DNA of 64,000 nt from Trissonchulus latispiculum (lineage: Eukaryota > Nematoda > Enoplea > Enoplida > Ironidae). Of this stretch, positions 1,901 to 40,887 are shown piece by piece. Every line of letters starts with the position of its first letter. Within the stretch, counting starts at the first letter, position 1. The notes under the pieces were generated by a model, which saw only the letters and a program-made list of their open reading frames with translations, ran no database searches and was not told the origin of the DNA. The translations under genes were made by a program, and so were the position numbers. The stretch lies in NCBI GenBank assembly GCA_030248195.1, contig JASAND010004386.1, positions 1 through 64,000 of the forward strand, read 5' to 3'.

Positions 1901-2480
1901 TTAATCTACATCAAAACAAACTTTTGACAGTTTGCATAGCGTAATACAACACCAAGCACTGGGTTTCAGCCATTGCCAGGAACATTTCTGGAAGGCCCTA
2001 ATTTGGCAACAAAAAATAATATTTGAGTATTATGAAACACTGTAGGCGCTATGCTTTTTGCACAAACGTTGTAAACAGAAATACATGCCCGGGGCGGGCC
2101 AAAATTTAGTAAGCGGCCCGCACAGGCTGATGCGGGCAGAGTTTTGAGGCTACGTTTTGTTATACCAAAACTAAGGCTTGGCTTAAGATTTTGGACAAAA
2201 CAGTTACTGCAACTCAACTAATTTTAGGTTAAAACAGTATATAATGGTTTTAAAATTTCTATTGTTGTTCATCACAGAAACCTTAGACTATGCCTTCTTT
2301 ATATTAAGCAAAGTACTGAATTAAAAAAAATTGTGGTCTATTGGTTTTGACGCTGGCCTAAAAACCTAGGTCGCTTTGAGCAAATTGTCTTAGGGTTGCC
2401 GACGCAAACACTGCTTTGGAGTGACATTATTAAGTAAAAGTCATGTCATTGGTGCATAAACTTCAGCTTGAAACTACTGT
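1901..2480. other. Intergenic, no gene seen
   Basis: A+T-rich spacer upstream of the receptor pseudogene. It contains a short G+C-rich island near 2085-2150 with partial inverted repeats of GCCCGC and GCGGGC. No supported coding region was found on either strand. Confidence 0.5.
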
Positions 2481-2553
2481 GTTCCCGTAGCTCAGTTGAC
2501 GGAGAGTTTGCCGATTGCGCAAAATGTCGTCGGTTCGAGTCCCACCGGATGTC
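2481..2553 (+). repeat. tRNA-like sequence (tRNA pseudogene or SINE head)
   Basis: An A-box-like stretch 'TAGCTCAGTTGACGGAGA' (2488-2505) and a perfect B-box 'GGTTCGAGTCC' (2532-2542) are correctly spaced. An anticodon-like stem TTTGC/GCAAA can form, but the loop has G rather than U at position 33 and the acceptor stem pairs poorly. This looks like a tRNA-derived SINE head or a tRNA pseudogene rather than a working tRNA. Confidence 0.45.
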
Positions 2554-2910
2554 CAAGTGTTTTGAGTTTTCGGTAGTAAATGAGTTTTCATAAACTTTTA
2601 AACTTAAGTTTAAAAGCTTGATTTATGCTTTGAAATCTCAAAACATAAAATGAATTAACTAGTAGTATACAAATACGGGTTCTGGCACACTTAGCTAATA
2701 GTAGTGGTCCCTGGTGGGATTAACAACTATCTGGTAATACTTATTTGTCATAAGTGGCTTGAATTAATCTTAAAGTAATTGTAATTGCTTATGTGACCTT
2801 TAAATTCCATTTAACATTAAAGTGCCTAAGTAGTATAGGAGAGATGAAACCCTACACCATGGAAATCTTCAACACCTTTATTCATTCTATACATAATTCA
2901 ATACATACAA
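2554..2910. other. Spacer to the left of Polinton 1; element end not found
   Basis: A+T-rich sequence between the tRNA-like repeat and the polymerase C-terminus. The left terminal inverted repeat of the Polinton should lie here or just outside. No inverted match to the region right of 16120 could be found by eye, so the element end is either lost or too diverged to recognise. Confidence 0.4.
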
Positions 2911-5900
2911 TCAATCAATCAATACATGACCATAAGCAAGTGAATGAATGCCATCATCAAGTATGTAACATTTGTCATCATAGGCGCTTAATCCTACCTT
3001 ATACCTTTGTACTGTAGTCAACTGATGTCCTTTCCTGTCAATGCTAGTACTCATAATATGTCTGGTCTGACCTCCTTCAAATAGGATTCTCTTATAATCT
3101 CCATGACTCAATCTCACCGATCTGCTTAGTCCCTTAGCTGCTGACTTATCATCTCCCTCACACCCGATGCTGTACATCTTCGCTCTCAGTCCAACAAATT
3201 CACTTATAGGCTTCCCCTAACTTCATCCTTCATCTTACCAATTACCTTCTTGTTGGTTGTGCTGTACAATGGATGTTCCTTAGGATAGTTGCTGGTGTCA
3301 AATAAGTCAATGTTTTGTGCCATGTCTTGGTAAATGTCAGGGTGTTTGTCACGTGGTAACAGAAGCTATCAGTATCAGTATACAGTAGGCTTGCTCTATC
3401 ACCGTACTTCTGTCTCATGTAATTGTAGTGAAAATTATACATGAGATACTTCGATAATTCCAGTACGGTAAATCCTACATATACTGGCTTAGATAGCTTT
3501 ACTGTACGTTTCTGCATCTGAACTGCTACCAAATCCCCTGAAAAGGCTTCACATGCCTTATACCTAGGGTTTGCAACTAACTTCTCAAACTTCTCTGGAC
3601 TTCTACATGATTGAGTACATTCTCCATTGTCTTCCCAAACACCGCATTATTCATGAGCTTGTATACATCTTCCTCGAACCTGCTCTTAGCGGCTGCTCTC
3701 TTCACCATATTCAACTCAATATAGGGTTTCATCCATGCTTTTTCCTCAAATGTTATTCCCCTATGTATCTTTCTTAGCACTAAACCCTGATCCAAATACT
3801 GTTCTAGGGTATGTTTGTGTACGATGTAACGAGTCTTATTCTGTAAATTCGGAACTAACTTCCCTGTTGCTTACTGTATGGTGATATCATACCCTCGCTG
3901 ATGGTAGTTCGCTCAGGTGCAAGTGGATAGTCATTGTGTGCATGATGTAGATTGTGTGGATAGTCAAGGTCAACTTCAAGGATACATGGAACGTGTGTCC
4001 ATTGATCTAAGTCTGTCATCCACCTAAAATTGCGTACGGGTAACTTCTGGACCACTGATCATCCGTATAAATTATGCATATCTACGTAGGTTATGTATGT
4101 TATTGGAAAATTGGGATTATAGTCATCCAACAGTGGATTATTAGCCTTAGCGTACCGTTGAGCAACCATAGCCACTCCACCCCTAATCCCATCTTCAAAA
4201 AACTTGTACATATCCGGGCCAGTCAATAGATCTAACTCTTGTCCTGTATACTTGAGACAGGCGTCCCATGCAAATGAAGGTACAGTACAATAATGACATG
4301 GATCTAAACCATATGTTTTCAGACTGGTTCTGCGAAAATTCGCTACCACATCTGCAAGCAATAAGACATCTGTTCTCAGGTATTCATCGTGATACTGTCC
4401 CATATTCTGAATTCCTAGACTCTGCCATACATTGATTGCATGTTCGTAGTCACTGCTACTCATGTCACTGTCTGCCAATTTACTGTGGAAGGCTTCAGTG
4501 GGAGGTAACTGCTGCTCCTCGAATCTTGCCCATGATTCCATATATTCATAAGGATATACGCCCTTCCTTCTCATCAGTACTAGCTTGTCACCGTAGAAAT
4601 TAAATCAGCCAATCCACCTGCTAATGTATCTAGTGACCTGTTCAGGAATTGATAGCTGTCAATGAACCTGATACGCCATTCCTGCTCGACATTCAACTCA
4701 AAACATAGGTAATCTTCTAAGCCCTTCGGTACGCACGTGATGTCAAGCTTAAACTCCTTACTGATCCTCCCAACTTCCTGCATTATTAGGTGCCCATCGT
4801 ACTGCTTTAGGTTGTGGAACATTACAGTCACCGTTTGTCCAAGCTTATATTTGAGATTACACCGCCTGTGTGCATAACCTCTAATTGTCCCGCAAATATG
4901 ACAATGGTCTCATGTAGACTCACCCTCCGCAATTGTTACATGGCATAGATGGCATTCTGTACAATGTTGAAGAAGTCGCTTGGGTAACCTCAGATACTTA
5001 TTCAGAACTTCCTGGTACTGTTGACCCTTCTGTATGACGGTCCTTAGGAATTGCTGCACTGCGTCTTCCCCTCGATAAATTATCGGATCTCCCCTAACCA
5101 CTGGCTTTCCGTCACAATACTGGAGAACATCTACTAGTCCAAACGCACATGGTTTATGTCGCTCGTAACTGTTTGTAAATGAAGACATTGGGTTAGGCTG
5201 ACATGTGTCTATCTTCTCTAATAAACACTCAAAATCTGCGTAAATCGCGTAAGGTCGCATTAATCGCCTATGATCATTCTGAAATTTAAGCTTTGTCAAT
5301 GATGGCATTACTGTAATCTGTAAATTGTCAGTACTACAAAGGTTCTGATGTTCATTACGTCGTTCTTCTGTGCCAAATGGAAATAGACAATGATTGCAAA
5401 AGTACTTTCTTCTTTTTTCTTTCCGCTGATCATGAAGAAATCTTCCAAGGTCCTTGATCAGGCAGTAGTGTGGTTATTCAGGAGCAATAGGTGGATACGT
5501 TTTTCACGTCTGGTCTTCGATAGGTATAGGATATGAACTGATTTGTCGTAACCATAGACATTGATGGATATATCGTTCTGTCGTTCAAATTTGGGAATAT
5601 CGTTTTCTTTAACTGGGAACTCCAGACCTTCAAAGTTCAGATCATCCACAAATTGTTGATATTTGAAAACTATTCGCATTTGTCTTCACTGGATGTAGTC
5701 CAGCCAAAATACTCCACATGAAGCATTTATTGTCACTGTTCTTAGGATTGATGATTGCCTTCTTGCTTTCAAGCTTCTTAGGCAATGGTATGTAGGTTGA
5801 TCCAAATAATGGTCGGTATTTGGCAAGGTGAATGTCCAGGTATCGTACATGATCAATTACCCAGCCAGATCCATTACGCTGAAACTCTTTGACATTGGCC

Positions 5901-6737: not shown

Positions 6738-7227
6738 TTATACGATAGCGTGATACTTTTTATGACATATCAGACAGTTAGGTGTAGGCGGTGTTCTAAT
6801 TCTCAGGGAATCAACAAATGTCTTAACAATACTGTCATTGGTATCACTGCGCTTCCTGAGATATCTGATGATGGAGTCCATTGATCTTCCTCTTGCTCGG
6901 TGGTGAAGGAAGTAGATACAGTATTCTAAACAAACATCAGTGGTAAAATCTTGTAGCTGGATAGGATTGTATTCTAATAGCCTATTTCCAATGAAAGATG
7001 TGAATAGTAGAGGTGGTAATCCATAGCTATCAAAATACTCTACCTTATTGCCCTCCAACCACATTGCAACCCAGTGTTCTCCAGGTTCATTAGCCCGTTC
7101 AGTATTCGCAACAAGACAACAACATTGACTTGGTATCCTATCAGGTAATCTATCACTTGCAAATACTCCCAGGAAGGAAATTCTACGGTCTTTGCTTATA
7201 GTTAGATGAATTTTTTTTGGTGTTCAT
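6738..7227 (-). CDS. Adenain-like cysteine protease (capsid maturation)
   Basis: The frame from 7205 down to 6738 matches the adenovirus/Polinton protease family, which cleaves virion precursors. It has an N-terminal 'FLGVFASD' block, the catalytic His in 'GEHWVAMW', an acidic residue in 'EYFDSYG' and the catalytic Cys region 'DVCLEYCIYFLHHRARG'. The family usually has Cys-Gly where this copy has Cys-Leu. An ATG at 7227-7225 overlaps the stop of the capsid gene as ATGA, but lies one frame away, across an A8 run near 7211-7218. The gene is therefore either slightly damaged by slippage or begins elsewhere. The C-terminal 'CLICHKKYH' adds a possible metal-binding pair. Confidence 0.75.
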
Positions 7228-8496
7228 AGTGCGTAGTCAAAGAATGGTGTTCGATTATAATCTATTGATATGAGATTATCAAATTCGCCATATATAATGA
7301 TTTCAACTCCTTGAGGGTAAGTGGCTGTAGGTAGGGCTTTCTCTAGTTGCATTCTCAGTAATACGTAACCTTCCCTGATCAATTGCATAGCTCCTGTATC
7401 CACGCTATCGGGAGTTAGATCAAATGCAAATATCGTGTATACTTTACCAAAATCTTCGTAGGAAATATCTGCACCTTTAGTTGACCCTGCCATGTCGTTA
7501 CCCTCATACAGGTATATGAAGGGTATTGTGTACTGGAACTTATCCCATGCCATCCTCATAGGTTGTTTGGGTGCAAACTCATCTCCGTACTTGAGTGCAA
7601 TCTCGCTGACGTTACAGTGTTGGAACTCTAGGGGATTATGTTTCTGACTTCCATTGAATGCTTCTGACTTTACCATTGCCACTAAGACTCTGCGTGGAAG
7701 TTGACCAATGAAGATGGAGTTTTCAACTATTGCCTGTACTCCAGGTGCGATATGTCTGGTTACTAGCTTAGTTCGTCTAATGTGATATTTGGCAGTTTCA
7801 CGATCTCTCAGAACACCCTCAATTGCCATGGTCAGGGAATCTTGAAGTTTTACCTTCCATACACACCACCTAATGTCGTCCACAATGAGCTTGTATCCAC
7901 TGGTTGCTGACTGTAGCAGTACATCGTCAGTATTTCGATGTATTTCCAGACTCAACTGACACTCACTTAGCAGGTCGCAGTGAAGGGGTCCTGCTACGAC
8001 TACATAGCGATCATCAGTGAATGGAATTCCCCTGTGTTTAGCTGCTATAGATGTAATCTCGTTAAAGTCACTGTCCTTTGCAAATAGGTTACTCTGTAGA
8101 TGTGTGGTCTTGGCTTCCTTCCCAAAGTTGGCTATTGTCTCGAGGTAGGCTCCATAGGGATACAGGTCTCCACTGTTGTAAATTTCCTTATCTGACAGTT
8201 TGACTACCAATCGTCTGATGAATGTTTTTGCTAGCATATTGATGGGTGCTACTGAGATACTACCATCCGCCGCCTTTACCACAGCCTTTCCATCACTGTC
8301 TGTTATTCGTAGCTTCAGGTATAGTTAATTTTTTATTCAGGTCAAGCATGTAGGAATCCTTAGGTACTTGGAATAGGTATGGACCTGAACTTGTAACAGG
8401 ATTTAGGGGGTAAATTTCTGCCATGTACCCACTCTCTACACTAACCTGAGTTGGACGTAGTGAGAAGAGATCCATCTCGGACTTAAAGCCCGGCAT
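7224..8496 (-). pseudogene. Major capsid protein (hexon-like double jelly roll), one frameshift
   Basis: Two adjoining segments encode the Polinton/adintovirus major capsid protein. The first, 8496-8293, has 'FSLRPTQVSVESGYMAEIYP' and 'PYLFQVPKDSYMLDLNK', the characteristic N-terminus. The second, 8282-7224, is 352 residues with 'APINMLAKTFIRRLVVKLSD' and 'YNSGDLYPYGAYLETI', the region that leads into the first jelly roll. The two are offset by one frame at about 8290-8345, next to an A-rich run. Apart from that shift the gene is uninterrupted. The total of roughly 420 codons is close to the usual length for invertebrate Polinton capsids. The stop overlaps the start of the protease gene, showing tight packing. 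Confidence 0.8.
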
Positions 8497-8956: not shown

Positions 8957-9706
8957 GATTTTTCTTGAAGTGTAGCTTAATGACTATATTGCCATACTCA
9001 AAATGTACAGTCCTCCCAATGTGGTTGTTTATATGGACTTTAAAGGTGCTAATTAAGTGTTTATTCACAGGGACGTAGTGGGGTTGAAAAGAATGTTGGA
9101 TGATATCTCCATACTCATTACCAGTTTTTACAATTCCCAGTAGATTCCCGGTAGTTGTACCCATTAACTGTTCTTTCACAATGTCACAATGAACTTGAAG
9201 ATAATGATAGGTATGGTCAGGTGGACGTTGTGTGTAGAACTTCTTAGTCCTTAGGGCATCCGTACCATCCTCTACGGTAAATTTCTAAGAGTCAAAGCCA
9301 AGAATGCGTGCAATTGTAGGTGCAAATTGAACAAAACCAAAGTTAGGTCTTTCAAGGTGTTCTTGGTTCTTGTATAAGTCCAGGTAAACCCGATCCATTT
9401 CCTGATCATAGACGAAACGTATAGGAGGTGATTCCTGACGTTCATTAAGAATTGACTGAATGGTAAGGTTGATGGTGTTTATCAGGTCGTGAAGGTTATA
9501 GTACCTCCGTCTGGTATATTGCCAACTACTCTCTCGTTTGCCTCAAATAATACTATAATGAATGTATCAGAATCAAGGGCTTTCCAGGTGTGAGGATAAA
9601 TGAAGTCTACCATTGCAACCGACCACCTACCATGGAGATGTAGTGGATGAGCCAATTGATTCTCGAAGGTACCGTCACTTAAAGTTAGATACAGGTAGAA
9701 ACTCAT
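8946..9706 (-). pseudogene. Penton-type minor capsid protein, copy B, diverged
   Basis: The segment starting at 9706 ('MSFYLYLTLSDGTF', then 'PLHLHGRWSVAMVDFIYPHT') matches the N-terminal pattern of the Polinton penton protein. The end at 9179-8946 ('HYVPVNKHLISTFKVHINNH', 'VHFEYGNIVIKLHFKKN') matches its C-terminus. The same two landmarks occur in the neighbouring copy A, so the two genes are paralogues in tandem. The middle (9180-9480) can be read open for much of its length but changes frame at least once, and a stop lies near 9284. Copy B is more diverged than copy A. Confidence 0.7.
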
Positions 9707-10510
9707 CTTTGCTTTCGGAAGTGTAACTTTGCAAATACCTTTCCGTACTTAAAGTGTACCGCGTTTCCGTGATCATCCTTTATATGTATTTCAATACTAT
9801 CAAACTCTTTCAATGGTATATAGTGTGGATTGTTGTATATTCGATCAATAGTATCATTATGCCTTCCTTCTATACTAACAACACGAATGATGGGTGAGAT
9901 GGTGTTTCCTATCACTTGCGGTGCTACCACGTCACAATAGATGAACATGGAATAGAGTCCGCCTCTCAGGTCTGGTGCACTATTGGCGACTGCGTATCTA
10001 GGTGGTGAGTCCGTCTTTTCCTTAGGTACGACCTTTGTGTCCGAGTATCCTAGCATATGCTTTAGCTGCTTACTGAAGTGTAACGACTTAAAGTCTGGTT
10101 CTTTGTCTAGGGTAGTAGGTTTCAGTCCAACTCGTCTATGAAGTTCATCGTAGGCTAGTTCACAATTGATTTTCTTAGTCAATTGTATAGTTGATGGCAT
10201 CACATAGCTGATGTATAGACTCATAGTCATTTAGGGGTATGTGACCATTGAACTTCTTTTTGCCAACAGTCACTCCAAGCTTCGCATCAGCTTTATTACC
10301 AACATTAAACCAGGTGACAGGATATCCGAGCTCTACTAATGCCACTTCCCATTCGCCTTCAAGGTCTACTCTGTGAGGAAGTTTGACTCTGTAGTTGTTT
10401 AGTTTGTTGGTGCAGTTGTCGCCGGTATTACTGGGTAGGTACAGATAAAAATCCATTATCTTCTGTAAGCCAACTGTTAAATTTGTCAGGGTATCCAAGC
10501 CACTTGACAA
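9703..10510 (-). pseudogene. Penton-type minor capsid protein, copy A, one frameshift
   Basis: The N-terminal part (10510-10175) has the family signature 'FYLYLPSNTGDNCTNKLNNY' and 'EGEWEVALVELGYPVTW'. The C-terminal part (10230-9703) has 'LRGGLYSMFIYCDVVAPQVI' and 'AVHFKYGKVFAKLHFRKQ'. The two parts overlap in different frames at 10230-10175, so one indel separates them. This protein forms the vertex (penton) capsomer in Polinton-type capsids. It is followed at once by copy B, whose start at 9706 overlaps the end of copy A as ATGA. Confidence 0.75.
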
Positions 10511-11520
10511 AATACTCTTTACGACCCTTACGCCTTCTTGTTTTTATTACTTTTTCTACCCAATATGTGTCTGGTTCATCAACCCGTTGTACTTCAGCCT
10601 CATAGAATCCACCCTCAATCTCTTCTACTCCGTAATCTTCTAGGTGGTACATTGGTGGATTATTGGTACTGACCTTTCGTATTCGGAACGGTTCTTCTGA
10701 CCAGTTAGGCAAATAACCTTTATCGAACAATCCCTTTGCTTTACTTATTCAAACCATTTCTCCAAACTTCAGCTTAGTTGGCTTATTATTATTATTTGTA
10801 TTGTTATTTCTTCTTGTCTTCCCGTATAAAGCTTTTCTAACAGCTTCCATATTTTCTGGTTTAGATGCCTAAACAGGAGGCATACGAATACTCCGGTGAC
10901 GTGCATTATTGTAGTCACTGACGAGTTCGGGTAGTGCGTCAAAGTACCTGTAAGATCTTGCCTAGGTAAAGAATTTCCATATCTTTGTCGTGATTGTTCG
11001 GTTGAAACGTTCTACTAGACTGCACTTAATCACAGGATTATTACACGTGTAAAAGTTGACATGGTGGGTGTTTAGCAGCTTCTGGAAATCCTTATTGAAA
11101 AATTCTTTGCCTCTATCAGACTGAAGGTTAAGGGGTGATCGACCGCCTGCTAATATTTCCTGGAACGCTCTTGTCATCTCTATACCACCTTTACTCTTAA
11201 CGGGTAGTATCCAAGCGTACTTAGAAAAGGCATCAATACAAGTGAATAGATACTTATAACCATCAGTTTTCTCTGAAATCGATACCATATCTGCCAAGTC
11301 TATTTGCCATAGGTCGTCAATTGCTGATACAACATATCTCCTCGTGGGAAATTTGTGCCTTACAGGTTTATGGGTGCTGTAAGTATATTGTTTCTCCAAC
11401 CACTGACGTACCCTTGACTTTGAAATTCCATGTCTTTTCGCTTCCTGGTACACACGATTAATACCACCAAATGCTGCAGGACTTTTAGGGTCTTAGTAAA
11501 TATTTTCCAAACTTGTCTGT
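10428..11520 (-). pseudogene. Retroviral-type integrase with chromodomain
   Basis: The catalytic core lies at 11453-10962: first Asp in 'LWQIDLADMV', second Asp in 'LQSDRGKEFF', and Glu in 'CSLVERFNRTI', so the DDE triad is complete. The N-terminal 'AAFGGINRVYQEAKRHGISK' block typical of Polinton integrases is present, but a TAA at 11495-11493 replaces an expected residue there. The C-terminal part (10730-10428) has 'FDKGYLPNWSEEPFRI', then a chromodomain ('YWVEKVIKTRRRKGRKEYFV', 'KWLGYP'). A frame change lies between 10962 and 10730. The enzyme inserts the linear element DNA into the host genome, and chromodomains bind modified histones. Confidence 0.85.
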
Positions 11521-12034: not shown

Positions 12035-12047
12035 AGTAGTCTGGTTT

Positions 12048-12136
12048 GACTAGGATTGAATATTCCATTGTTACTCGATCATCAATAGTACCAGTTTTTC
12101 TTATTTATGATTTTCTTTATCACATGTGTATGTATG

Positions 12137-12180
<44 letters not shown>

Positions 12181-12367
12181 CGTATGAGATTTCCGAGTAG
12201 TCCACTGACAATACCAGCAATTGGACCATGTAATGCTGGTAAGAATCCTCCGTGTTCTAGGATTCTGTTAAGAATTGACTAGGATTGAATATTCCACTGT
12301 AATACTCGACTATCAATAGTACCAGTTTTTATTATTTATGATTTTCTTTATCACATGTGTATGTATG

Positions 12368-12444
<77 letters not shown>

Positions 12445-12520
12445 CGTATGAGATTTCCGAGTAGTCCACTGACAATACCAACAATTGGACCAAGTAATGC
12501 TGGTAAGAATCCTCCGTGTT
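12048..12520. repeat. Tandem duplication of about 230 bp containing (ATT)n microsatellites
   Basis: Two direct copies, 12048-12276 and 12277-12520, start with 'gactaggattgaatattcca' and end with 'gctggtaagaatcctccgtg'. Each carries an interior (ATT)n run, at about 12137-12180 and 12366-12444. The second copy contains the 3' end of the neighbouring small Polinton gene (stop at 12441). The first copy is therefore a partial duplicate of that gene's end plus downstream DNA. Confidence 0.85.
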
Positions 12521-12776
12521 GGACTATGACCTTCTTCTTCTTCTTGAGACTTACTCTTTTCTTGCGTAGTGTCCTTAGAGCGTACTTATATCTGGCTAGT
12601 CTATCCTTATTCTTCTTTGATATTTTCACATTTCCAGATAAGACATTTTCAGCACAATCGCAAATGGCATTTATGAGATCAGGACTTCCATGCAGAATAA
12701 TTGCATCTCTTTGTTTGCGTCTTTTGCAGTGACACAAGAGCCGTAGTGTATCAATGTTTATTTCAAAACTATCCAT
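12441..12776 (-). CDS. Lys-rich small virion protein with hydrophobic C-terminus
   Basis: The 111-residue product has a very basic middle ('RKKRVSLKKKKKVI') and ends in a hydrophobic, Gly-rich tail 'GGFLPALLGPIVGIVSGLLG'. This combination is common to a small Polinton/adintovirus protein that has been compared with adenovirus core peptide X or membrane-active minor proteins. Such a tail could act on membranes during entry or bind capsid interiors. It is intact. Its last codons are duplicated in the 12048-12276 repeat, where the upstream coding part is missing. Confidence 0.55.
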
Positions 12777-12786
12777 GACTATATAA

Positions 12787-13446
12787 TTATTGCTTGTTTG
12801 TTTCAGTTTTTATGGAATATACATCTGTGTAAAGATCATCGGGAAATATGTGACCTCGTAGACGGAGTTTTTCTGGAGTGTTCTGATCCAAGTCTATCAG
12901 TAGGTATCCGTGAGGTCGACTAGTTGCACGGTCAAAGGCTTCCATAAAACCCTTCACTCTACCAGGATACATTTGTCTTGCAAGATTCATTGGTGTTATC
13001 TTATCTGCAGGGTTTTTCATCAGGACAATATACTGACTGTTTATCCTGTTAGTTCTCTGTCTATTGTAAAAGATGTCTTGATCAATGTTAACTACACTAC
13101 AGGACCAATGATGACATCCACGAGTGAACTAAATTAGGTTGCTGCTTAATTTCACTCATTAGATCATCAAGGACTACCAGTTTTGCATCGGGGTCTTTAA
13201 CATTTCCAGGTCAGGCAATCCCTTCACAAATTCTACCTGTGGAAGGTTATCATATGCTTCTTGCTACTCAGTATAACACCAAATTATCTTTTCAGGAGGT
13301 ACAGAGATCATTTCATCTGCATGTTGTACTAGTCTTGACACGAACGTTGTCTTTCCTGCTTTTGTTGGTGCCGCCACAATGCATGTGAACGGATGCTGAA
13401 ATTTCGGTGTCTTTACTGTTTCCATTATTAACCTACTTGTACACAC
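12787..13446 (-). pseudogene. Genome-packaging ATPase (FtsK/HerA-type)
   Basis: The N-terminal part (13446-13264) has Walker A 'APTKAGKTTFVSRL'. In the middle, near 13190-13150, a second frame holds Walker B 'KLVVLDDLM'. The C-terminal part (13020-12787) has 'QMYPGRVKGFMEAFDRATSR' and 'GYLLIDLDQNTPEKLRLRGH', a strongly conserved ending of Polinton packaging ATPases. The enzyme pumps element DNA into the procapsid. Frame changes separate the three parts, so this copy is not functional. Its order beside integrase and the small virion proteins is standard for Polintons. Confidence 0.8.
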
Positions 13447-13579
13447 AAAGTCTGTTTATATGAGTTTACTAGTCACAATTAATGCACCAATACACATCAA
13501 CAATTGTCATCAATATGTTTTCAATATGTCAATACGTCATTGTTTCTTCAGGTTCTAGTTTCTCATATATCCACATCTT

Positions 13580-14229: not shown

Positions 14230-14484
14230 AGTCAGGATCTTAATCTATGCGAGATAACAATCCTTCTATGTGCTTCTTATTACCATAGAATCTTGATACT
14301 GTTCTCGTATCAGCCCTATTCCCATGTAATTTCCCAGTATAATTTTGTCTTGCTTGATAGCCGAACTTCACATGGCATAGACGTGTGGGGAGATTCTAGT
14401 ATTCCATAAACCCTTCATGGAGAGTAAATAAGTACTAAATAAGTAGTAGTAACGATATGTTGCTGATTGCGAAGAATATGCGTT

Positions 14485-14940
14485 ATGATTGTCAACGTTA
14501 TTCTTAATGGCCGTTTTGATAAACAACTTAGATTATCAGACATTCCTAACATTAAGCTGTACAAGGGATTTATTGGTGGTAGTTTGAAGCTTGAAGAGGC
14601 AACATTTCAACTTTTCCGGAGTGGTAGTTTTGCTTGTCTTGGATGCAGATCTGTCGAAAGGGCCAATCAATGTACAGTTCAACTAGCCAATAGCCTTGGA
14701 GTTGGAATTCTTCAACGTGGTAAAGTGGTTAATCTTGCCTCATCCTTTAGCGTTGGCAAGTGCATAGATTTGAACAGACTGGACAAGCACCTAAGGAATA
14801 ACTTTCAGGTATGCTATGAACCAGAACTTTTCAATGGACTTACGTGTAAAATTGATGGAGTAACAGCTCTGATTTTTCACACTGGTAAGGTCATTCTTAC
14901 TGGCGCTAAATGTTCACTTCACCTGCAATCTACTAAATAA
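14485..14940 (+). CDS. TATA-binding-protein (TBP)-like protein
   Basis: From the first in-frame ATG (14485) the product is 151 residues and contains two imperfect repeats like the TBP saddle. The second repeat is clearest: 'YEPELFNGLTCKIDG' followed by 'ALIFHTGKVILTGAK' (about residues 111-142), nearly the TBP consensus. The first repeat has 'FQLFRSGSFACLGCRS' (41-56), the equivalent of the LIF-SGK-TGAKS strand. The linker 'VVNLASSFSV' resembles the start of the second TBP repeat. Phenylalanines at positions 29, 44, 116 and 131 line up with the four that kink TATA DNA in TBP. TBP cores are about 180 residues, so this one is trimmed, mostly at its ends. It is transcribed divergently from the virion block. 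A role in element-specific transcription initiation is inference. Confidence 0.8.
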   Translation: MIVNVILNGRFDKQLRLSDIPNIKLYKGFIGGSLKLEEATFQLFRSGSFACLGCRSVERANQCTVQLANSLGVGILQRGKVVNLASSFSVGKCIDLNRLDKHLRNNFQVCYEPELFNGLTCKIDGVTALIFHTGKVILTGAKCSLHLQSTK

Positions 14941-15010: not shown

Positions 15011-15379
15011 ATGTCTAACCACAGTCAGTTAAACGAATTCCTACAAAAGACCCTACGCCAACCACCACCAGTTCAGGTATGGACTACTGGTCGATGGGTT
15101 GCAGTCATGGTGATAGGCTGTAAGACCTGGACAAGTGCTCCACTACCACATCCACGTAACGCTATCGAGCAAGTTTCCGGCATGGTCTATGATGAACTAT
15201 GCCATATGGATAAAGAATCTCTCAGACGTGAGTGCGGTTTACCACCAAGACCTCATGTTCCAGAAATTGATGCTGTCAGGGATAAGATGAGAGATTTACG
15301 TTCCATTATGAAACATCACCAACGGATTCAAATCATTTATAATCAACTAGACAAATTGGAAGCTGAGATATTTGAATAA
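15011..15379 (+). CDS. Unknown protein with C-terminal coiled coil, beside the TBP-like gene
   Basis: An intact 122-residue product starts at 15011, 70 bp after the TBP-like stop and on the same strand. The N-terminal half includes 'VWTTGRWVAVMVIGCKTW'. The C-terminal third is charged and heptad-like ('DKMRDLRSIMKHHQRIQIIY', then 'LDKLEAEIF'), consistent with a coiled coil. No family is recognised. Its position suggests co-expression with the TBP-like protein, so it could be a partner. Confidence 0.5.
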   Translation: MSNHSQLNEFLQKTLRQPPPVQVWTTGRWVAVMVIGCKTWTSAPLPHPRNAIEQVSGMVYDELCHMDKESLRRECGLPPRPHVPEIDAVRDKMRDLRSIMKHHQRIQIIYNQLDKLEAEIFE

Positions 15380-23236: not shown

Positions 23237-26200
23237 TCAATACTCCATCATAATAATGTCCGTGGCCCGATGGTGGTCTTGGGGATGAGGTTCCAGAGGG
23301 TTCCACAGGGTCAGGGCGATTGATGGACTGAAGACGTTCTTCTCCTCACCCGGAGGGGCGCAACCGATAATATGGATGCCCTCCCTGTTGACTGGCATGT
23401 CAATGGGCTGATTCTTCAGGGCCAATGGTGGTTCCGTTCGGAAGAAGGGAGGCGCTGGCAGTCCCTTCTTGTAGCGCTCCGCAGCCACCGCGATGCGTTT
23501 GCGGACCACGTCAAGATAGGCGTTGAGCCGACAACCAGCCAAGGGAATTCGGTCGAACCGGTCCTCCCAAAGCTCGTCGGGTCCAGCCTGCATGAACCAC
23601 AGTCCCACCTCCGTGTAGAGGGACCCCTGAATGTTGTTACCTGACCAATTGTTGGTGTTGAACAGCCAATTGTACTTGCCGTCGAACAGCAAGTCATCAG
23701 GCTTGAAGCCCCGAGGAACCTTCACACCAATTCCCCACCAAGGGTCCGTGGAAGCCTTGCAGTAATAGCTCCCAATCGTCTGGACCAGGAACTCCTGCAT
23801 ATCAGGGCAATGATAGAAGACGTGGAATATGATCAGCCGCTGCGTGAGCTGATCAGGACCTGACTGCCATCGCTGGAGGCGACAATCGGGCAGGGCGGCA
23901 ATGGCCTGATCCGTGCTATGCTTGATAGCGAAGCCATCGCGACCGGGATTATCCCTCACAAGGTCCTTGACGACGTCAGACTGGCAGTACCAGCCCTTAC
24001 GACCCTGATAGAGGTGCTCCTTGGTACCAACGTAATGATTCTCGAATTGTTCCACCGGCAGGTTGACGTATGGCTGATGTTTGAACATGAAGGAGAAGGC
24101 ATATTCCGGCCCCAGATAGAAATTGAGGAAGTAGCCCTCGTCAACGTTCGCGATGCCCGCGACGTTGGGTCGGTGGTAATCCAACATGGCCTTCTTGATG
24201 GTCATGCATCGGGTTCGCAAACGACGGCTATGCATGTGACAGCAATAGAATTCACGGAAGTCATGCCGTCGGATCAGATGAGGGTACCGGAACAATTCCG
24301 GCACCAAAGCCGCCGTGGCCATACAGTTGGCCCATCGAGCAGTGGACGAAATCCGATTGACTGGAAAACCCTTGTAGATTTTCCCATAGCGATCACGGTA
24401 GTCCGCAATCTGCCACCGTGAGTGCCAGTTGGTTCTACCACCACTCGTCACCTTCTCAGGCGTAGCCTTCATGTGATTCGTCAACTGGGGATCGCGGTCC
24501 CACATCCTCTTCCAGATGATATCCAATAAATCATCCGGGAGCCGTTGGGTCTCGTGGATATGCGCCACCATCCACTTGAGGACCTCCTCACGGAACAGGG
24601 CCACCCAAGGGTGCAGATTCCGCTCGCTAGGGTCACCCGGGATGTTATGGGGCATCCACTGGAGATTATTGTCCCGCATATAGATGATGGGATGATCAGG
24701 CCAACGGTCCAATTTGATGGCCGCGATCTCCGCCGGTGTCGGTTGTTCGATCTTAAATCGGTCGTAAATCGGGTCTTCCGTCCCACGGGACACCTGCTTC
24801 GCGATGTCCTGGTTGAGCATGTCGCAAAGGACGGTGACCAAATAGACCCGAAACGGTGGAAAATTGTCACGTGTATAGTTCGACGGATATTCAGGTGGCA
24901 GTTCCCGAATAGCCGAAGTTTTTCCGTCCGCTTTCTTGATAGTTTTGACTTTAGGGACACGATAAGCCGGCGATTTTGGTCGTGACCGACTCAACGTGTC
25001 AGCGGCGTGATGACGATCACGATCATGACGAGATTCTTCACGTCGTTTAGTCGGATAGGCCGGAGGGCGACGGTCCTCGCGACGATCTTCATGACGCTCA
25101 CATTCGTGGCAGATGTCGGTCGAGCGATTCCGCTCTTCCGAATAGCGATCTCGTGACGGTTTCCGATGACGGTCGGACTCACGACGACGAGCCGACGGTG
25201 AACGGTCACGTGTAGACCGTCGGTCATGATGACGACTCGTTGACGGATACCGACGATGGTCATCTCGGGACTCCGGTCGGCGATCACGAGATGTTCGTGA
25301 CGCGGAACGGGAATCTCGACGACGAGATGCTGATCGTCGACGATGACGGTCCGTTGATCGTTCTCGACGGTGTGATCGCGATTGATCACGAGGTTCAATT
25401 GATGGAGGGGGACGTGATGTCTCCCGCCGAGGCGACCGCTGCGATCGTGAAGTAGATGGTTTATCGTCCCGGCGACCGTGATAGACGGCCTCCCACCTGT
25501 CGTGGTCCGGAGAATCCCTGGGTGGTTCCTCCAGAGGGACGTAGGACACCCGTCCAGGTGTTGACGATCGTTGAGGATGGCTTCGAGGAGTAGTTGAAGC
25601 CGTGATAGCGGTTGCGACGGATGAATCCGAGTCGGATCCGTAAGGGCGATGGCCACGGCCTCGTCCTGAACCAGAGATACCGCCGAAAAAGTTCGATTCG
25701 GACGCAGCCATTCCAGGTTTGGCCGCTTCCGCTCCAGCCAACGGGGTTTTGGGTGCAGACCGGGCGATGCCGCCACTAGATCCTCCCTGCGACGATTCAA
25801 CACGACGAAGTTTCGTGCCGAACCGCGCCGCGGGGACCGAGGTGACCACCGGGGAGGGAGGGGTCGTCGTTCCCTGCAAAGACCGGATGACAGACGGCCC
25901 CATCAGCACATCACCGGTTGGGCAAACCTGAGGAACCACAAAGTCAGATAGATCCAGGTTAGGCTTGGGTACGGCTGGCACCACGGATTCCCGTCTGCCA
26001 GGCCGCGAGGAGAGCCCATCATGCTCCCGCATGATCATAACCGGATTAAGTCCCTGCAGTTCTGCCTGCTGCATCACCTCCATGAGTTCCACCTTCTGCT
26101 CCTTGCTCAGGAACATGGAACCCATCACCTGCGAAAAGTTCGTGTCCCCGACAGTTAGAGAGTTCAAGGTGTTGATGTACGGCAGTACACCATGGGCCAT

Positions 26201-29200
26201 TGCACCGCCATCCCGTTTCCGATAGAGGATGACCAAGTCGGACCACCGCAAAGCAGGGCCCGAACCATCCACGGGGACCTCCCGGTAGATTTCCCAGAAT
26301 ACCGGTTGACCCTGACCAACCATCCTGAAGAAGGACTCAGGATCATAGCCAGGCATTTCGGGGTCCGCTGGGGGTCCCACCACGTAAATATGGCGTTTCG
26401 GTTGAATAACGCCAATGGGAGAGTCTCTGTAAAGGGCGTTTAATGTCAAGATGGACTCAGGGACCAGGACCTGGATATAGGGTTGAACCCTCACCACGGA
26501 GACATTCGTCGACGACTGGACTCCTGTCGAAGGATCCGTCGACGTAGCTAGTTGGCTGGTGATCATGGGCTGCTCCAGCTTCCAGTGATAAAGATCAGGG
26601 GAATAGGCAGTCGGGCCCGTCACACCACCAGGACGTTCCTCACAAGCGACCAAGAAACGCTTGGCCTCCTGATAGGCGACATGAGGGATATCTCCATGTT
26701 GGGCCAAGATCTCGTCCACGGTCGTAGGAGCTCCACTCGACGATGGGGTTGAGCCCAACGTGCGAGGAACTCGGATCCCTGCGGCCAGCGAAGCTAGCCG
26801 TGCCCGCTGTTCTTCCGTCATTGGTGGATACCAGCCAGGTTGGGTGACTGGAATGGCCATCGTGAGCCTGGGTGCACAAGCTTCTAGGAGGGTCGGCTGG
26901 AAAGTCCCCTGTTGACGTTGTGCGTCTTCTTCTGTGGGCGTACCAGGCCGAGCTCCAGCTTCTTCTGACGGTTGTTGCTCATCAGGCTGATATTCCGTCT
27001 CCGAATCGGATACCTCCACCACTTCGTCGTCTTCCACGGTTGCCTTGGCCAGGCTCGCAGATTCCTGCTGCCGGGTAGACGACCTAGTCCGTCGCGGACT
27101 AGTGGTGACCGCCGTTTCAGCCGGCCGGGACGAACCCGCCGTCTGATATGTAGGCCGCTCCTCCAGATAGCGATGACCGCCCGAATATGTCACTGGAGGT
27201 AGCTCCTTCTTTCTGGGATCACCAGTTCCCTCATGATAGTGAGTCAGTGGTGGCAGTTTCTTCGGCAGAGGTGGCAGTCTCGTCTCCTTCTCTCGTCGTT
27301 GAGCTGCCTTTCTGGCTTCCACCAGCGATTCTGGTTCATCAGCCATGGTCTGTTCGTTCGGAGGAGTTGACGACCAGTCGGAACCATCCGAAGGCCGATC
27401 ATCTGACCGAAGAAACTGATGGGCTGTTTCAGGTGGTAAATCCGTCGGAGTATCATTTGGATCAGCGTGATGACGCCGACCTGCGACGGCCGCATACCAG
27501 TTGAAATCCAGTATGTCATCCCGTCGTCGCAGGGTCAGGTACTTCAGTTCATAAAAGTTGGTCAAAAGTTCCATCAGAAGCACCCAGGACACTTCCCGAA
27601 GCGGGTGGGCAGCATTGCCTCCTTCTGCTTCGGAAACTGACAATGACCAGGCGAAGCTTCCTTTGAGATACTTCACCGACGCTCGTTTGATGGTCAGCTT
27701 CTTCCGGAATTCCAGTTGGCGGGTGTGCTGAAGGTCCGATGACATAAACCGAAGAGGCGTAAACATCTTTGACTGCACAAGTGGGCCGAGCCCTAGTTCT
27801 GCCTCCTTGTTTACCTTCACCCATAGATCAGGCGAGAAAGTGTACTGCGCACTGCTAAGATAGATGACCTGGATCCATTCGTCCAGGCGCAGAGCATTAG
27901 CCACTTTGACCAGGCAGGCATAGATGGCCAAGATGTCCGCCAAGGCATATTTGGCTTCTTCCAAGGTCGGACAGACCGCACAACCCTTGAAGTTTTCCGG
28001 TTGAAGTCCCTTCGGAGAAGGCACGTCGCAATAGTTACAGATCTTATTCAGGGAGAAGTGAGTGCTGATGTAGCATTCCTTGGTCGTATCGGTGATGCTT
28101 TCCCAAGGGACCACAGGAACGCTAGGGTCCAATTCTCGGCGCTTCTTGATGTAAGGCACCGATTGCGCGACGACCGCTCCCAGTTCTGCTGCGTAGGTCT
28201 CCATACCTGTGATGCCACAGAATTTGGCCAATCGCAGAAAATCAGCCTGTCCACCAGCAAATACCATATAAACTGGCTCAGGTGGGTGCAGGATGATCTT
28301 CAGAGCATAAAGGACCGCGTAATAGTCCGAGACAGTGACCAGGATTTCACTGACCACGATCATGAAGACCTTCGGATGCTTTGCTGGGACTGGACCAGCA
28401 ATTTGGATCATGGTGACAGTAGCATCCATTTTGTTGGCGAACTGGGTGTACGCACCACCTTCGATATCTATCGCAACGACGCCCGTTGCCTGATAGGTTT
28501 CGAGGATATCCGGAAGAGCATCAAATAGACCCTGAAGGGTCCTGATCAACCGCAACGGCTGAAATTGGTCCGGTAAAGGCAATTGATCTGCACAGAACCG
28601 CTGATGCCTCTCCGGTTCCTTTGCTGTCGTGATGTCGTTGATGGCTTCTATCAGGACGGCATCCGGATGTGCGATATCGAAGTCCTTCTCCCGACCCATG
28701 AGGACTTCCTTCAAATATGCATGGTAGGTAGCCACGCCGTACAAATGTTCCTTGGCTTTATCCTGGAGATCGCCAGGAATGGCTTCGATGTCCTCACGGT
28801 TTGGCAGTTCATAGGATAGTGCGATGACCTTCTCCGGTGGGGTCATGGTAATTGGATTACGATCGAGGGGCAGGGAATGTTCGTGGCCGTCCGCAACCAA
28901 CGGGACGCTCTGAACCACCTCGTCCATTCCTGCTGCCCGTCGGGGTGGGACTCCTAGCGATTCCGCTATATCCGCCGACAGAGCTTCCCGTTCCTCGTTG
29001 ACCTCTTCGACCACCATGAGCTGGCCCGCTTTCAGCTGAGCATCAGCGACTTCGCCCATGGGGACGTTCTGCCGGGTGGTTGGATTGCCTGTTGCTGGCG
29101 TGTCCGATTCCAGATCCACCACCGTAGGGGTAGCCGATGCCGGCTCCGCCTTCTGGTTCTTCGCATTAGAACGAGTTCCTCGTCGTGATGGTTTTTCGGG

Positions 29201-30310
29201 AGGCTCGTCGGTCTCAGTAGCAGATTTGACTGATTGAGTCCCACGCTTATTCTTCTTGGAATTACCACGATTCCGTTTCTTCGATTTAGTAGAAGTTGAC
29301 TGAGATGACTCAGCAACTGACGAAGCAGTGTCCAAAGATGCTAGAGACTGACTGCGCATCTTCTGCAGGACGACTTGGCGTTGGCTTTCCAGCAGTGCCA
29401 TCTGCTTCTCAATGTCCTTAAGTGACAATGTGGTTTCCTTCCCAGGAACCACTGGGGTAGTGTCTTGACTTACTCCAGGCGCACTTATGGAGCAAGTAGA
29501 TGTTGGACTGTTCCTTCGTGATGTTGCTCGTTGCTTTTTCCCATTTGGAGCTGAACTCCGAGTGTCTGAATCTTCAGTGGTATCACCACTGGCAGCAACT
29601 GCTGGGCGCTTGGTCCCCTGACTAGACGGATTGACAGGATTGGTTTGATGTTCGGGCTTGCCAGCTGGGCTAGGGACCTGGCGTCCGTGGTCTGTTCGGT
29701 GGCCAGTCGTTGGGGCCGGGCAGCCCTGCGCTGCAGCCACCGCGTCCTTACCAGCAGAGACGGTCTCGTGAGCTGGCTCGACGGGGACCTCAGGCAAAGA
29801 CTGGGGGTCCATCTGGCCGGCATTTGATGAACCCACAGGGGATGGGGTAGGAGCATCAGGTTGGCCTCCCAGACGTGATGCCACGCTGGAAGGTCCAGGA
29901 CCCATCCGATTGCTGTCCGAGGCGACCACGGCACTGTACAAGTCCGTGTCAATATTGGGGTCCAATTGTCCAAACAGATCCGATAAAGGGTCCACCGAAG
30001 ATTCCGACACCTCGTAAGTGTCAGACACACAACCGGGAACCACTGGCTGCTGTCCCATGGGGTGATCGGAGCCCAGGTCCTCGACCACCGATTGAGGCTC
30101 CCGCGCAGGCGGAAACTGCTGCAAATCCTCGGTGTCAGGCGCCGGACCTTGGGCCGAGCCCTCACCAAGCATGGGATCCCGTGCCATCTTCTGCTGATTT
30201 CGCTTCCTGAACTGCTGGTGCATGGTGACTATCTCCAATTGTGCGCACAAGATACAGAAATAATTTGATCCAGTTGATACTACACTACAACCAGCTGAAA
30301 CAATAAGCAA
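23237..30310 (-). CDS. Large third ORF: DEDDy 3'-5' exonuclease + RS-rich linker + NADAR domain
   Basis: The open frame is 2357 codons. The first AUG in good context ('ACCATG') is codon 30 at 30223. Residues 30-490 are Ser/Pro/Lys-rich and probably disordered. Residues about 570-810 form a DnaQ-fold exonuclease: motif I 'VVAIDIEGG' (D615, E617), motif II around D690 in 'GGQADFLRLAKFCGI', motif III 'YALADILAIY' (Y788, D792), the RNase D/WRN/EXD1 pattern. Residues 1615-1795 are rich in Arg-Ser and Arg-Asp. Residues about 2058-2235 match NADAR: 'TKEHLYQGRKGW' (E2098), 'CKASTDPWWGIGV' (D2189) and 'GNNIQGSLYTEV'. NADAR proteins act on N-glycosidic bonds of nucleotide or ADP-ribose compounds. The ORF occupies the env position but has no signal peptide, fusion peptide or membrane anchor. 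Confidence 0.85.
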   Translation of the reverse strand: MLIVSAGCSVVSTGSNYFCILCAQLEIVTMHQQFRKRNQQKMARDPMLGEGSAQGPAPDTEDLQQFPPAREPQSVVEDLGSDHPMGQQPVVPGCVSDTYEVSESSVDPLSDLFGQLDPNIDTDLYSAVVASDSNRMGPGPSSVASRLGGQPDAPTPSPVGSSNAGQMDPQSLPEVPVEPAHETVSAGKDAVAAAQGCPAPTTGHRTDHGRQVPSPAGKPEHQTNPVNPSSQGTKRPAVAASGDTTEDSDTRSSAPNGKKQRATSRRNSPTSTCSISAPGVSQDTTPVVPGKETTLSLKDIEKQMALLESQRQVVLQKMRSQSLASLDTASSVAESSQSTSTKSKKRNRGNSKKNKRGTQSVKSATETDEPPEKPSRRGTRSNAKNQKAEPASATPTVVDLESDTPATGNPTTRQNVPMGEVADAQLKAGQLMVVEEVNEEREALSADIAESLGVPPRRAAGMDEVVQSVPLVADGHEHSLPLDRNPITMTPPEKVIALSYELPNREDIEAIPGDLQDKAKEHLYGVATYHAYLKEVLMGREKDFDIAHPDAVLIEAINDITTAKEPERHQRFCADQLPLPDQFQPLRLIRTLQGLFDALPDILETYQATGVVAIDIEGGAYTQFANKMDATVTMIQIAGPVPAKHPKVFMIVVSEILVTVSDYYAVLYALKIILHPPEPVYMVFAGGQADFLRLAKFCGITGMETYAAELGAVVAQSVPYIKKRRELDPSVPVVPWESITDTTKECYISTHFSLNKICNYCDVPSPKGLQPENFKGCAVCPTLEEAKYALADILAIYACLVKVANALRLDEWIQVIYLSSAQYTFSPDLWVKVNKEAELGLGPLVQSKMFTPLRFMSSDLQHTRQLEFRKKLTIKRASVKYLKGSFAWSLSVSEAEGGNAAHPLREVSWVLLMELLTNFYELKYLTLRRRDDILDFNWYAAVAGRRHHADPNDTPTDLPPETAHQFLRSDDRPSDGSDWSSTPPNEQTMADEPESLVEARKAAQRREKETRLPPLPKKLPPLTHYHEGTGDPRKKELPPVTYSGGHRYLEERPTYQTAGSSRPAETAVTTSPRRTRSSTRQQESASLAKATVEDDEVVEVSDSETEYQPDEQQPSEEAGARPGTPTEEDAQRQQGTFQPTLLEACAPRLTMAIPVTQPGWYPPMTEEQRARLASLAAGIRVPRTLGSTPSSSGAPTTVDEILAQHGDIPHVAYQEAKRFLVACEERPGGVTGPTAYSPDLYHWKLEQPMITSQLATSTDPSTGVQSSTNVSVVRVQPYIQVLVPESILTLNALYRDSPIGVIQPKRHIYVVGPPADPEMPGYDPESFFRMVGQGQPVFWEIYREVPVDGSGPALRWSDLVILYRKRDGGAMAHGVLPYINTLNSLTVGDTNFSQVMGSMFLSKEQKVELMEVMQQAELQGLNPVMIMREHDGLSSRPGRRESVVPAVPKPNLDLSDFVVPQVCPTGDVLMGPSVIRSLQGTTTPPSPVVTSVPAARFGTKLRRVESSQGGSSGGIARSAPKTPLAGAEAAKPGMAASESNFFGGISGSGRGRGHRPYGSDSDSSVATAITASTTPRSHPQRSSTPGRVSYVPLEEPPRDSPDHDRWEAVYHGRRDDKPSTSRSQRSPRRETSRPPPSIEPRDQSRSHRRERSTDRHRRRSASRRRDSRSASRTSRDRRPESRDDHRRYPSTSRHHDRRSTRDRSPSARRRESDRHRKPSRDRYSEERNRSTDICHECERHEDRREDRRPPAYPTKRREESRHDRDRHHAADTLSRSRPKSPAYRVPKVKTIKKADGKTSAIRELPPEYPSNYTRDNFPPFRVYLVTVLCDMLNQDIAKQVSRGTEDPIYDRFKIEQPTPAEIAAIKLDRWPDHPIIYMRDNNLQWMPHNIPGDPSERNLHPWVALFREEVLKWMVAHIHETQRLPDDLLDIIWKRMWDRDPQLTNHMKATPEKVTSGGRTNWHSRWQIADYRDRYGKIYKGFPVNRISSTARWANCMATAALVPELFRYPHLIRRHDFREFYCCHMHSRRLRTRCMTIKKAMLDYHRPNVAGIANVDEGYFLNFYLGPEYAFSFMFKHQPYVNLPVEQFENHYVGTKEHLYQGRKGWYCQSDVVKDLVRDNPGRDGFAIKHSTDQAIAALPDCRLQRWQSGPDQLTQRLIIFHVFYHCPDMQEFLVQTIGSYYCKASTDPWWGIGVKVPRGFKPDDLLFDGKYNWLFNTNNWSGNNIQGSLYTEVGLWFMQAGPDELWEDRFDRIPLAGCRLNAYLDVVRKRIAVAAERYKKGLPAPPFFRTEPPLALKNQPIDMPVNREGIHIIGCAPPGEEKNVFSPSIALTLWNPLEPHPQDHHRATDIIMMEY

Positions 30311-30315
30311 AAAGG
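30294..30315 (-). promoter_or_regulatory. Predicted splice acceptor for the third ORF
   Basis: The minus strand reads a pyrimidine-rich tract (CTTTTTGCTTATTGTTTCAG) ending at 30295, just upstream of the first good AUG of the third ORF at 30223. With the LTR donor, this would give a spliced subgenomic RNA. Confidence 0.55.
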
Positions 30316-30856
30316 TGTAGGTTCAACATGCAACAAATAACCCAAAATTTTGCGGTAAGGGACCACCCACCCAGGAAAAGGGAAAATTTTATATTGAGAT
30401 AAAAATTAAAGTAATTAGATTCTTAGGAAAAGTTTAAAAATTCGGGGATTAATTGGAATTAAAATAGAAAGAACTCTTAGAGAATTGTTGAAAGAAGTAA
30501 TGGATCAAAACCCTCCCAACAATTGAAAAAATTAACCCCCACAAAAAGAAAACTTGACCCAAAAACACAGAACAAAAATTTTATCCCCCCAGTGAAGTTA
30601 GTGGTACGTTGGCGTGACCAGCCTACAAAGTGGGGCCCCATAGGGCTAGTGCACACACATACGTTATCCTTTATGAGTGTTATAAGGTAGCTAATCTTAC
30701 AACAAACATACGTATATGACCAAACATACGCTCCTTACTAACATCACCAGGTTACCATGTAAATTTCCCATGATGGTTTTAACCACAAGCATGTTGATTT
30801 GCATCCTGACCAACTTGAAGGTAGGATGCCCTACCCTTCTTGGACCTGACCAAGGC
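30311..30856 (-). other. Spacer between pol and the third ORF
   Basis: An A+T-rich, non-coding stretch of about 550 bp that separates the pol stop from the third ORF. It ends with the predicted splice acceptor. Nothing else is recognised in it. Confidence 0.5.
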
Positions 30857-39925: not shown

Positions 39926-40168
39926 ACCGTGGAGACTCCCATGTGGACTGTATGGGATGTCTGCCGTCTACGTCGAGAATGACTGCTGGGTCGTTCACTG
40001 ACCGGGACCCGGCGCTAGGGATGCGCCCCCGGTCCAGTTCTGCTTCAATGGCGGAACTTAGTAGAAAGAAGAGTGGCTAGGCATCAGGGACTGCTCGGAA
40101 AAGTAGTGCCCCATCTCTGGATCCATCAAACTCCGGTTCTTTGACCACCTTGTCCGGGCCTGAACTGC
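39926..40168 (+). pseudogene. Inverted fragment of gypsy gag
   Basis: This stretch is the reverse complement of about 38553-38310, the N-terminal part of the gag gene, with only a few differences. It contains a TAG where the gag gene has a sense codon (next to 'gtggctaggcatcaggg'). It is a rearrangement scar, not an expressed gene. Confidence 0.85.
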
Positions 40169-40198
40169 CTGAATATCGAATATCGAGAAGGAAGCTGA

Positions 40199-40887
40199 GG
40201 AACCATATTTAGGCACAATATAATTATAGTGGAAATTGTACATGAGCAGTTTAGACAAATCGAGCACACTAAACCCAACATATATAGGCTTATTGAGCTC
40301 GACTGTCGGACGACTCAAACAAACTGCCACCAAGTCCTCATTAAAAACGGTTGAACGTTCAAAACGAGGATTTGACACCAGCTTGCTGAATCGGGACTGG
40401 TCACTTATAAGTTCCACATTAATATATTGACGGACATTTTCCATGGTTTTGCCAAGTACAGAATTATTTAACAATTTAAACAAGTTTTTTTTCAAAGTCA
40501 CTTTTTGCTGCCTTGTGCATCTCAGTGTTAAAGTTTATATACTGATGCATCCAAGCAGATTGACGAAACGCCAGGACGCGGTGCACTCGCTCTAATTTTA
40601 AGCCCAATGATAAGCATAACTTTAGATTACGAAAATGGATTATATATTTTGTTTGTTATAAAGATTGGGCACAAGCTTATGCACCTTAGAAACAGTAACA
40701 CTGAGATCCGTCTTCAACTGTTTACAATAAGGAGATAACATATCATTTGAAATCTCAAGATTTTCAAGCTTTTCAGGGGCCAGAGGATAACTGTTGTGCA
40801 AATGATGAAGCTCTTTTGGGTACCCCAAATCAACCTCTAAAATATAACCCTCCTCCCCGTCTACATCAATTGTAGACCAATTAAAGA
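40199..40887 (-). pseudogene. Polinton polymerase B fragment (Polinton 2 type)
   Basis: The minus strand encodes pieces between polymerase motifs A and C, including 'KLLNNSVLGKTMENV' (motif B), 'VYVGF'-like 'KPIYVGFSVLDLSKLLMYNF' and 'YILEVDLGYPKELHHLHNSY'. Its two ends, about 40199-40305 and 40730-40887, are nearly identical to 47020-47125 and 47351-47507 of Polinton 2. It is bounded on one side by the gag scrap and on the other by a reverse-transcriptase scrap. Confidence 0.85.

Follow-up and report, generated by a model that had tools for sequence, protein, structure and literature searches.

Polintons (Mavericks) measure about 15-40 kb; why would one of them carry a gene for a TATA-binding protein (TBP)? 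The question arises from a 64,000-nt stretch of contig JASAND010004386.1 of the nematode Trissonchulus latispiculum (hereafter the window), in which a preliminary description placed a TBP-like gene with two readable TBP repeats (14485..14940, +) inside a Polinton. The open reading frame spans 14467-14940 (+), and its first ATG, at 14485, opens a single uninterrupted frame of 151 aa that has no N-terminal region ahead of its first repeat and ends short of relatives about 95% identical to it. Pfam model PF00352 matches this protein over two stretches at 80.7 bits (cut-off 22.9), which bears out the two repeats, and the segments quoted for them, 'PELFNGL' and LIFHTGKVILTGAK, are both present. Alignment likewise confirmed Phe at all four of the positions that had been singled out, which we take to kink DNA, and it places Asn at both presumed DNA-contacting positions and E-E-L at the residues presumed to form the TFIIB stirrup. 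The best matches in a sequence search of the PDB are TBPs, an AF2 model takes the saddle fold, and Pfam, AF2, Foldseek and VIA agree on the identity of the protein; the outcome named beforehand as a refutation, neither a profile hit nor a saddle, did not occur, and a chance open reading frame was rejected as a reading of it. A word search with the window TBP as sole query returned 21 candidates, none at E<=0.001, and PHROGs held no match for it.

The surroundings of the gene are those of a Polinton, and its position at a divergent junction is as first described. To the left lie minus-strand open reading frames and, further out, ATPase and virion genes, and directly 3' of TBP lies a conserved 122-aa open reading frame (15011..15379, +) that adjoins TBP in 29 of 29 sampled loci of the window's own family (family A, below). 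Aligned with L015 and L026 omitted for a stop in each, this downstream frame found no significant relative in Pfam and PDB profile searches, neither of which supported the dsRNA-binding domain considered for it. A retroviral-type integrase, as expected of a Polinton/Maverick, is present in the window copy as a piece with an rve domain (10965..11492, -; Pfam 50.2 bits against a cut-off of 32.6, query 10965-11453). The FtsK/A32-type packaging ATPase is recognisable through relatives: the gene is broken into an N-terminal piece (13267..13455, -; ATG at 13425) and a C-terminal piece (12790..13128, -; identified by similarity to relatives), which are 33-36% identical to L042-L044, and the L042 and L044 proteins score above the Pox_A32 cut-off in Pfam.

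The rest of the virion block and the replication genes follow on the same strand. A small basic frame (12444..12776, -), placed from the ORF map and relatives, is one that we take to be pX-like, and within the same block the sequence around a TAT microsatellite is locally duplicated in tandem (12046-12256 and 12275-12520). What is presumably a penton-like minor capsid gene, so labelled from position and recall, survives as an N-terminal piece (10178..10543, -) and, in a different frame, a further piece (9706..10230, -), to which the TBP-fused domain of family B is homologous; PDB profile searches with the penton-like alignment gave nothing significant, so the name rests on position, recall and, for the family B domain, homology to this window gene. 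The major capsid-like piece (7227..8324, -) gives a double jelly-roll match in Pfam at E 8.5e-4 and 19.1 bits, below the cut-off of 27, and the capsid alignment had no match among PDB profiles at E<=1. The protease-like frame (6741..7223, -) has no Pfam match, and its relative in L057 reaches 16.1 bits for adenovirus endoprotease, below the cut-off of 21.3. DNA polymerase B is represented by pieces at 4913..5473 (-; labelled from relatives and position), 4062..4604 (-; DNA_pol_B_2 at 15 bits, below the cut-off of 25.8) and 3245..3646 (-; C-terminal, 56% identical to an L044 frame). No pair of terminal inverted repeats was recognised in 1-45000, and the left end of the element may fall outside the window. 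The shortened C-terminus of TBP and the splitting of several other genes over frames show that the window copy is decaying. Elsewhere in the window, a second, broken Polinton remnant with PolB-like frames was seen by eye (40061-49095, -), and a 2361-codon open frame (23240-30322, -) without a Pfam domain at E<=0.1 adjoins a Ty3-type pol frame (30860-36304).

The gene is not confined to the window copy. A search of the genome (734 Mb, 21,732 contigs) with the window TBP, in which the best 150 of 845 candidates were scored, self included, gave 125 listed matches whose matched stretch is free of stops, and with the Pfam TBP model the best 150 of 1271 candidates were scored; in such listings one TBP gene may yield two rows. 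The host TBP, on contig C14517, accounts for two of the Pfam matches (112 and 105 bits); the highest of the others scores 75. The stretches around sampled places were read and assigned to families that we labelled A, B, C and E; the Pfam TBP model scored above its cut-off for the window protein and for all seven element proteins submitted from these four families. Scans of IMG/VR with TBP, two capsid queries, integrase and profiles returned no relatives apart from one tailed-virus contig, L051.

From family A, to which the window belongs, 29 further loci were sampled with 1.5 kb on either side, and 23 of these hold a core Polinton gene that near; the other six, and the 9-kb L041, have none within the stretch examined. 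Read over greater length, L039 and L040 have ATPase, pX-like, integrase and penton-like genes, and L058 has the first three of these. L041 also contains a palindromic TBP arm (2219-3554 and 3952-5287), with 1336-nt arms 98% complementary and 397 nt apart that extend outward in shorter arms, and it may be a head-to-head element dimer. As far as the stretches extend, family B (L042, L043, L046, L049, L050, L052-L056) carries integrase, TBP, penton-like, MCP and ATPase genes, all in the same direction. The order in family C (L044, L045, L047, L048) is PolB, integrase, ATPase, NADAR, TBP, a short frame of about 110 aa and MCP, the TBP being broken in L044. The NADAR-domain gene of family C (L044 3660-4175; PF08719, E 1.8e-40) stands directly before TBP and is joined with it in one frame in L048 (4364-5317), and the family C packaging ATPase (L044 2191-2871) starts with a C2H2 zinc-finger-like stretch (18.7 bits, below the cut-off of 25.2). 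In the family B and C loci named above, a short basic frame upstream of MCP was read by eye, apparently between the penton-like (or about 110-aa) frame and the capsid-like gene. Family E (L057) reads MCP, protease-like gene, TBP, and its TBP is 21-44% identical to the other family rows.

With the family B ATPase as query, a listed TBP place lies within 8 kb of 98 of the 150 listed ATPase places (96 from the main TBP listings, and C1190 and C5593 from a further one). By ATPase identity these are 43 of 70 places at 60-100%, 55 of 61 at 46-59% and 0 of 19 below 46%; misses do not prove absence, since TBP places were taken from among the matches listed. Eleven of the 27 misses in the 60-100% class are plus-strand ATPases within 2.9 kb of the contig start, so near it that a TBP at its usual spacing would lie outside the contig. 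In L059 and L060, of the most divergent ATPase class, an HMM of element and cellular TBPs found no TBP in 8.9 kb. On these pairing counts and these two loci, TBP is widespread in the Polintons of this genome and not universal.

Copies outside the window also reveal how the gene has been maintained. TBP dN/dS (Nei-Gojobori) is 0.12-0.16 between the A subfamilies compared, with 0.12 for L058/L039, 0.16 for both L042/L043 and L050/L043, 0.11 for L045/L047 and 0.20 for L052/L056; close copies range over 0.04-0.32, and several distant pairs are too saturated to yield a ratio. The element TBP is under purifying selection between subfamilies (0.11-0.20). The host TBP of this genome (L001/L002), by comparison, is split by introns and groups with ordinary eukaryotic TBPs. 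A host TBP retrocopy trapped by chance in the window copy alone, the alternative named in the preliminary description, would suit a decayed element such as this one, but it is refuted by the many copies across divergent Polinton families, by the separation of element and host TBPs in the tree and by the selection on the element genes.

How often Polintons acquired the gene is a question of history. The position of TBP varies among families A, B, C and E, and in a first tree that included long-branch rows the element TBPs did not form one group and the element label needed three changes, a single origin being still compatible with that result. Both observations speak for repeated capture from hosts by different Polinton lineages, which would be compatible with the mechanism proposed below. 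Against it, a tree without the long rows sets 13 element TBPs together with P0029, P0066 and P0067 on one side at a support of 98/95, a value for all 16 rows together, with the three P rows counted in the element group by choice; on the other side are 16 host, eukaryotic and archaeal-looking TBPs, giant-virus TBPs not being among the rows. We regard repeated capture as less likely than not. The second tree left out P0033, P0038, P0039, P0044, P0053, P0054, P0055, P0056, P0058, P0059, P0061, P0062, P0063, P0065, L051, the window row, A_L036 and B_L050, and added A_L058, E_L057, B_L052, B_L053, B_L054, B_L055, P0034, P0036, P0066 and P0067; database proteins of more than 210 aa were trimmed to their last 190 residues, and the window TBP was represented by its 95% relative L010. 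An archaeal origin was rejected, as the element TBPs do not join the archaeal-looking rows. P0066 and P0067, from contigs of 1690 and 658 bases, are 47% and 44% identical to the L057 TBP, and by this resemblance TBPs of element type occur in other public sequence sets.

The residues by which a TBP would act are retained to different degrees among the families. Every element row compared keeps the DNA-contacting Asn, and all keep at least three of the four kinking Phe, with four of four in the A, C and E rows; family B has lost the first Phe of repeat 2 in six of seven rows. The E-E-L stirrup is kept in families A and E, and all seven family B rows have a gap at its L in repeat 2. With their TFIIB stirrup kept, A and E fit a role in transcription best; family B, with its repeat-2 stirrup changed, may bind other DNA or serve another role.

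Family B is also distinguished by a fusion. Of 150 listed TBP matches, 33 lie in open frames of at least 300 aa, and 32 of these score as family B, the remaining one being the NADAR and TBP frame of family C (C12868, L048). In the six of the 32 that were read (L049, L052-L056) TBP runs in frame into a penton-like domain, with an in-frame Met at the start of the penton-like part; the penton-like match was obtained by tblastn in five and by eye only in L053. The fusion partner aligns with the broken penton-like gene of the window (hhalign probability 96, E 3e-9), and for L052/L056 dN/dS is 0.09 in the penton-like half and 0.20 in the TBP half. Unless cleavage or splicing sets it free, TBP in the fusion lineages would be one portion of a longer protein. 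A bolder proposal would have family B TBP and a penton-like virion protein form one polypeptide, by which the element's own general transcription factor would ride in or on its particle and arrive together with the genome. On that view Polintons would count among the smallest DNA viruses that package a factor for promoter selection, and TBP would have been acquired once, before the families diverged. We consider this proposal, taken as a whole, unlikely.

The same join could serve a purpose other than transcription. The saddle fold might serve to bend element DNA, or to mark it, when the element is replicated, integrated or packaged, with the penton-like part tethering DNA to the capsid, and such an architectural role would agree with the six in-frame joins, with the gene order of families B and C, where TBP comes after integrase or NADAR and before the capsid-like gene, and with the changed TFIIB stirrup of B. 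It agrees less well with families A and E, whose loci, as read, keep the stirrup and show no fusion, and we hold it to be rather unlikely.

For a role in transcription, the upstream regions of element genes are informative. Among 45 element genes, 8 have a TATAWA that starts in the -60..-31 bin; the other bins predict 1.4, and each of 19 other 30-nt bins holds 0-4. The binomial tail of 7e-5 is approximate, since the genes are in part related to one another and two of them start with TTG. A cruder comparison, over 51 upstream stretches, put TATAWAW, TATAAA, TATTWA and TAATAA above dinucleotide shuffles but not TTTAAA; with TATTWA and TAATAA also enriched, the upstream signal is not purely TATA. 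TATAAAAG occurs at -36 to -38 before three genes of family C, and TATATAAA / TATAAAAG are candidate TATA-type boxes of the elements. In the window, TATAAA lies 35 nt before the start codon of the ATPase gene (13455..13460, -), which alone among eight gene or fragment starts inspected has TATAWA in -60..-31; the window TBP gene has none within 120 nt upstream, and by eye the regions upstream of family A TBP genes share no conserved motif. The scan for a shared TATA-like motif that had been proposed gives enrichment over the 45 element genes and a box at the window ATPase but none before the window TBP, and other AT-rich motifs are enriched as well. Further points against a TATA-based scheme are that host TBP can also read TATA boxes and that the 45 gene starts are partly related. 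Against the overall reading also stand the first tree, the most divergent ATPase places without a listed TBP, L059 and L060, the residue changes of family B, and the family A stretches in which no core Polinton gene was seen.

The whole genome yielded one match to TFIIB (PF00382) among six candidates, and this single match means that the elements bring no amplified TFIIB; Pfam recognised no further transcription gene in the loci read, TFIIB being the object of the targeted genome search. It is probable, in our view, that the window gene is an element-encoded TATA-binding protein, old and maintained in several Polinton (Maverick) families, which would direct element transcription via host TFIIB and RNA polymerase II. 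The element TBP would bind TATA boxes 31-60 nt before some element genes and recruit host TFIIB and RNA polymerase II, and these genes, probably those for capsid and packaging, could then be transcribed without dependence on host TBP/TFIID. The earlier suggestion that TBP redirects initiation to element promoters fits the TATA enrichment and the lack of amplified TFIIB, as we infer from the sequences. The retention of TFIIB-contact residues in A and E and the lack of another recognised transcription gene in the loci read (TFIIB being the one searched for genome-wide) would also suit a decoy, which would vie with host TBP for TFIIB, TFIIA or promoters and depress the transcription of host (for example antiviral) genes instead of acting at element promoters. 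Such host shut-off appears quite improbable, given the retention of the DNA-contact Asn throughout the element rows compared and the enrichment of TATA boxes before element genes.

The element TBPs share with cellular TBP (PF00352; host L001/L002 and human TBP) the two-repeat saddle, the kinking Phe and the DNA-contacting Asn, and in families A and E the TFIIB stirrup. They differ in being 24-29% identical to it in structural alignments of TBP chains, in lacking the N-terminal region, in forming an uninterrupted frame in a mobile element and, in family B, in the altered stirrup of repeat 2. In a viral fold library the best matches of the element TBP are giant-virus TBPs. Giant viruses usually bring RNA polymerase subunits; no amplified TFIIB, by contrast, accompanies the Polinton TBP here. 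Giant viruses and mirusviruses likewise encode their own TBP, in genomes far larger than those of Polintons. TBP is reported in 59% of mirusvirus genomes (PMC10132985); PMC11410667, in which the words Polinton and adintovirus do not occur, reports TBPs for large DNA viruses of three families already known and four additional ones. Compared by description, mirusviruses have an HK97 capsid, whereas the capsid genes here look double jelly-roll at sub-threshold scores. For the alga Cymbomonas, sporadic TBPs are reported in elements of putative mirusvirus origin, which lack double jelly-roll capsid, packaging ATPase and DNA polymerase genes, and not in that alga's Polinton-like viruses (PMC10675990). 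The TBP gene of L051 (7076-7672) is also virus-encoded, in a contig unrelated to Polintons, with terminase and portal-like genes and apparently of haloarchaea.

In its action, the closest analogue to the proposed scheme is the herpesvirus late-gene system. According to PMC4893493, the TBP-like protein of beta- and gammaherpesviruses (BcRF1/ORF24/UL87) directs host RNA polymerase II to late promoters, recognising TATT boxes as a member of a multi-protein viral complex; the element TBP would be a one-protein counterpart. U58/UL87-type proteins appeared in the viral fold library search only at E 3.3e-3. The preliminary description knew of no precedent in Polintons or adintoviruses, and among the open-licence papers listed by our searches on Polintons, Mavericks and adintoviruses there was likewise none on a TBP gene; two broad papers, on double jelly-roll viruses and on animal viruses, contain neither 'TATA' nor 'TBP' (PMC11071308, PMC11071296).

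Virus TBPs are thus already described in giant viruses, mirusviruses and herpesviruses; here virus-encoded TBP extends to Polintons, where the gene is amplified and maintained and, in one family, joined to a protein of virion type. For gene annotation it calls for caution, as such elements can inflate the TBP-like gene counts of a genome. Through the in-frame penton-like join, a general transcription factor might accompany the particle. The long maintenance of the element TBP suggests that these elements steer the host transcription machinery to their own genes, and its presence opens the expression of Polinton genes to direct tests. A maintained Polinton TBP, with no TFIIB of its own found, would show a small DNA virus taking over promoter choice with one protein.
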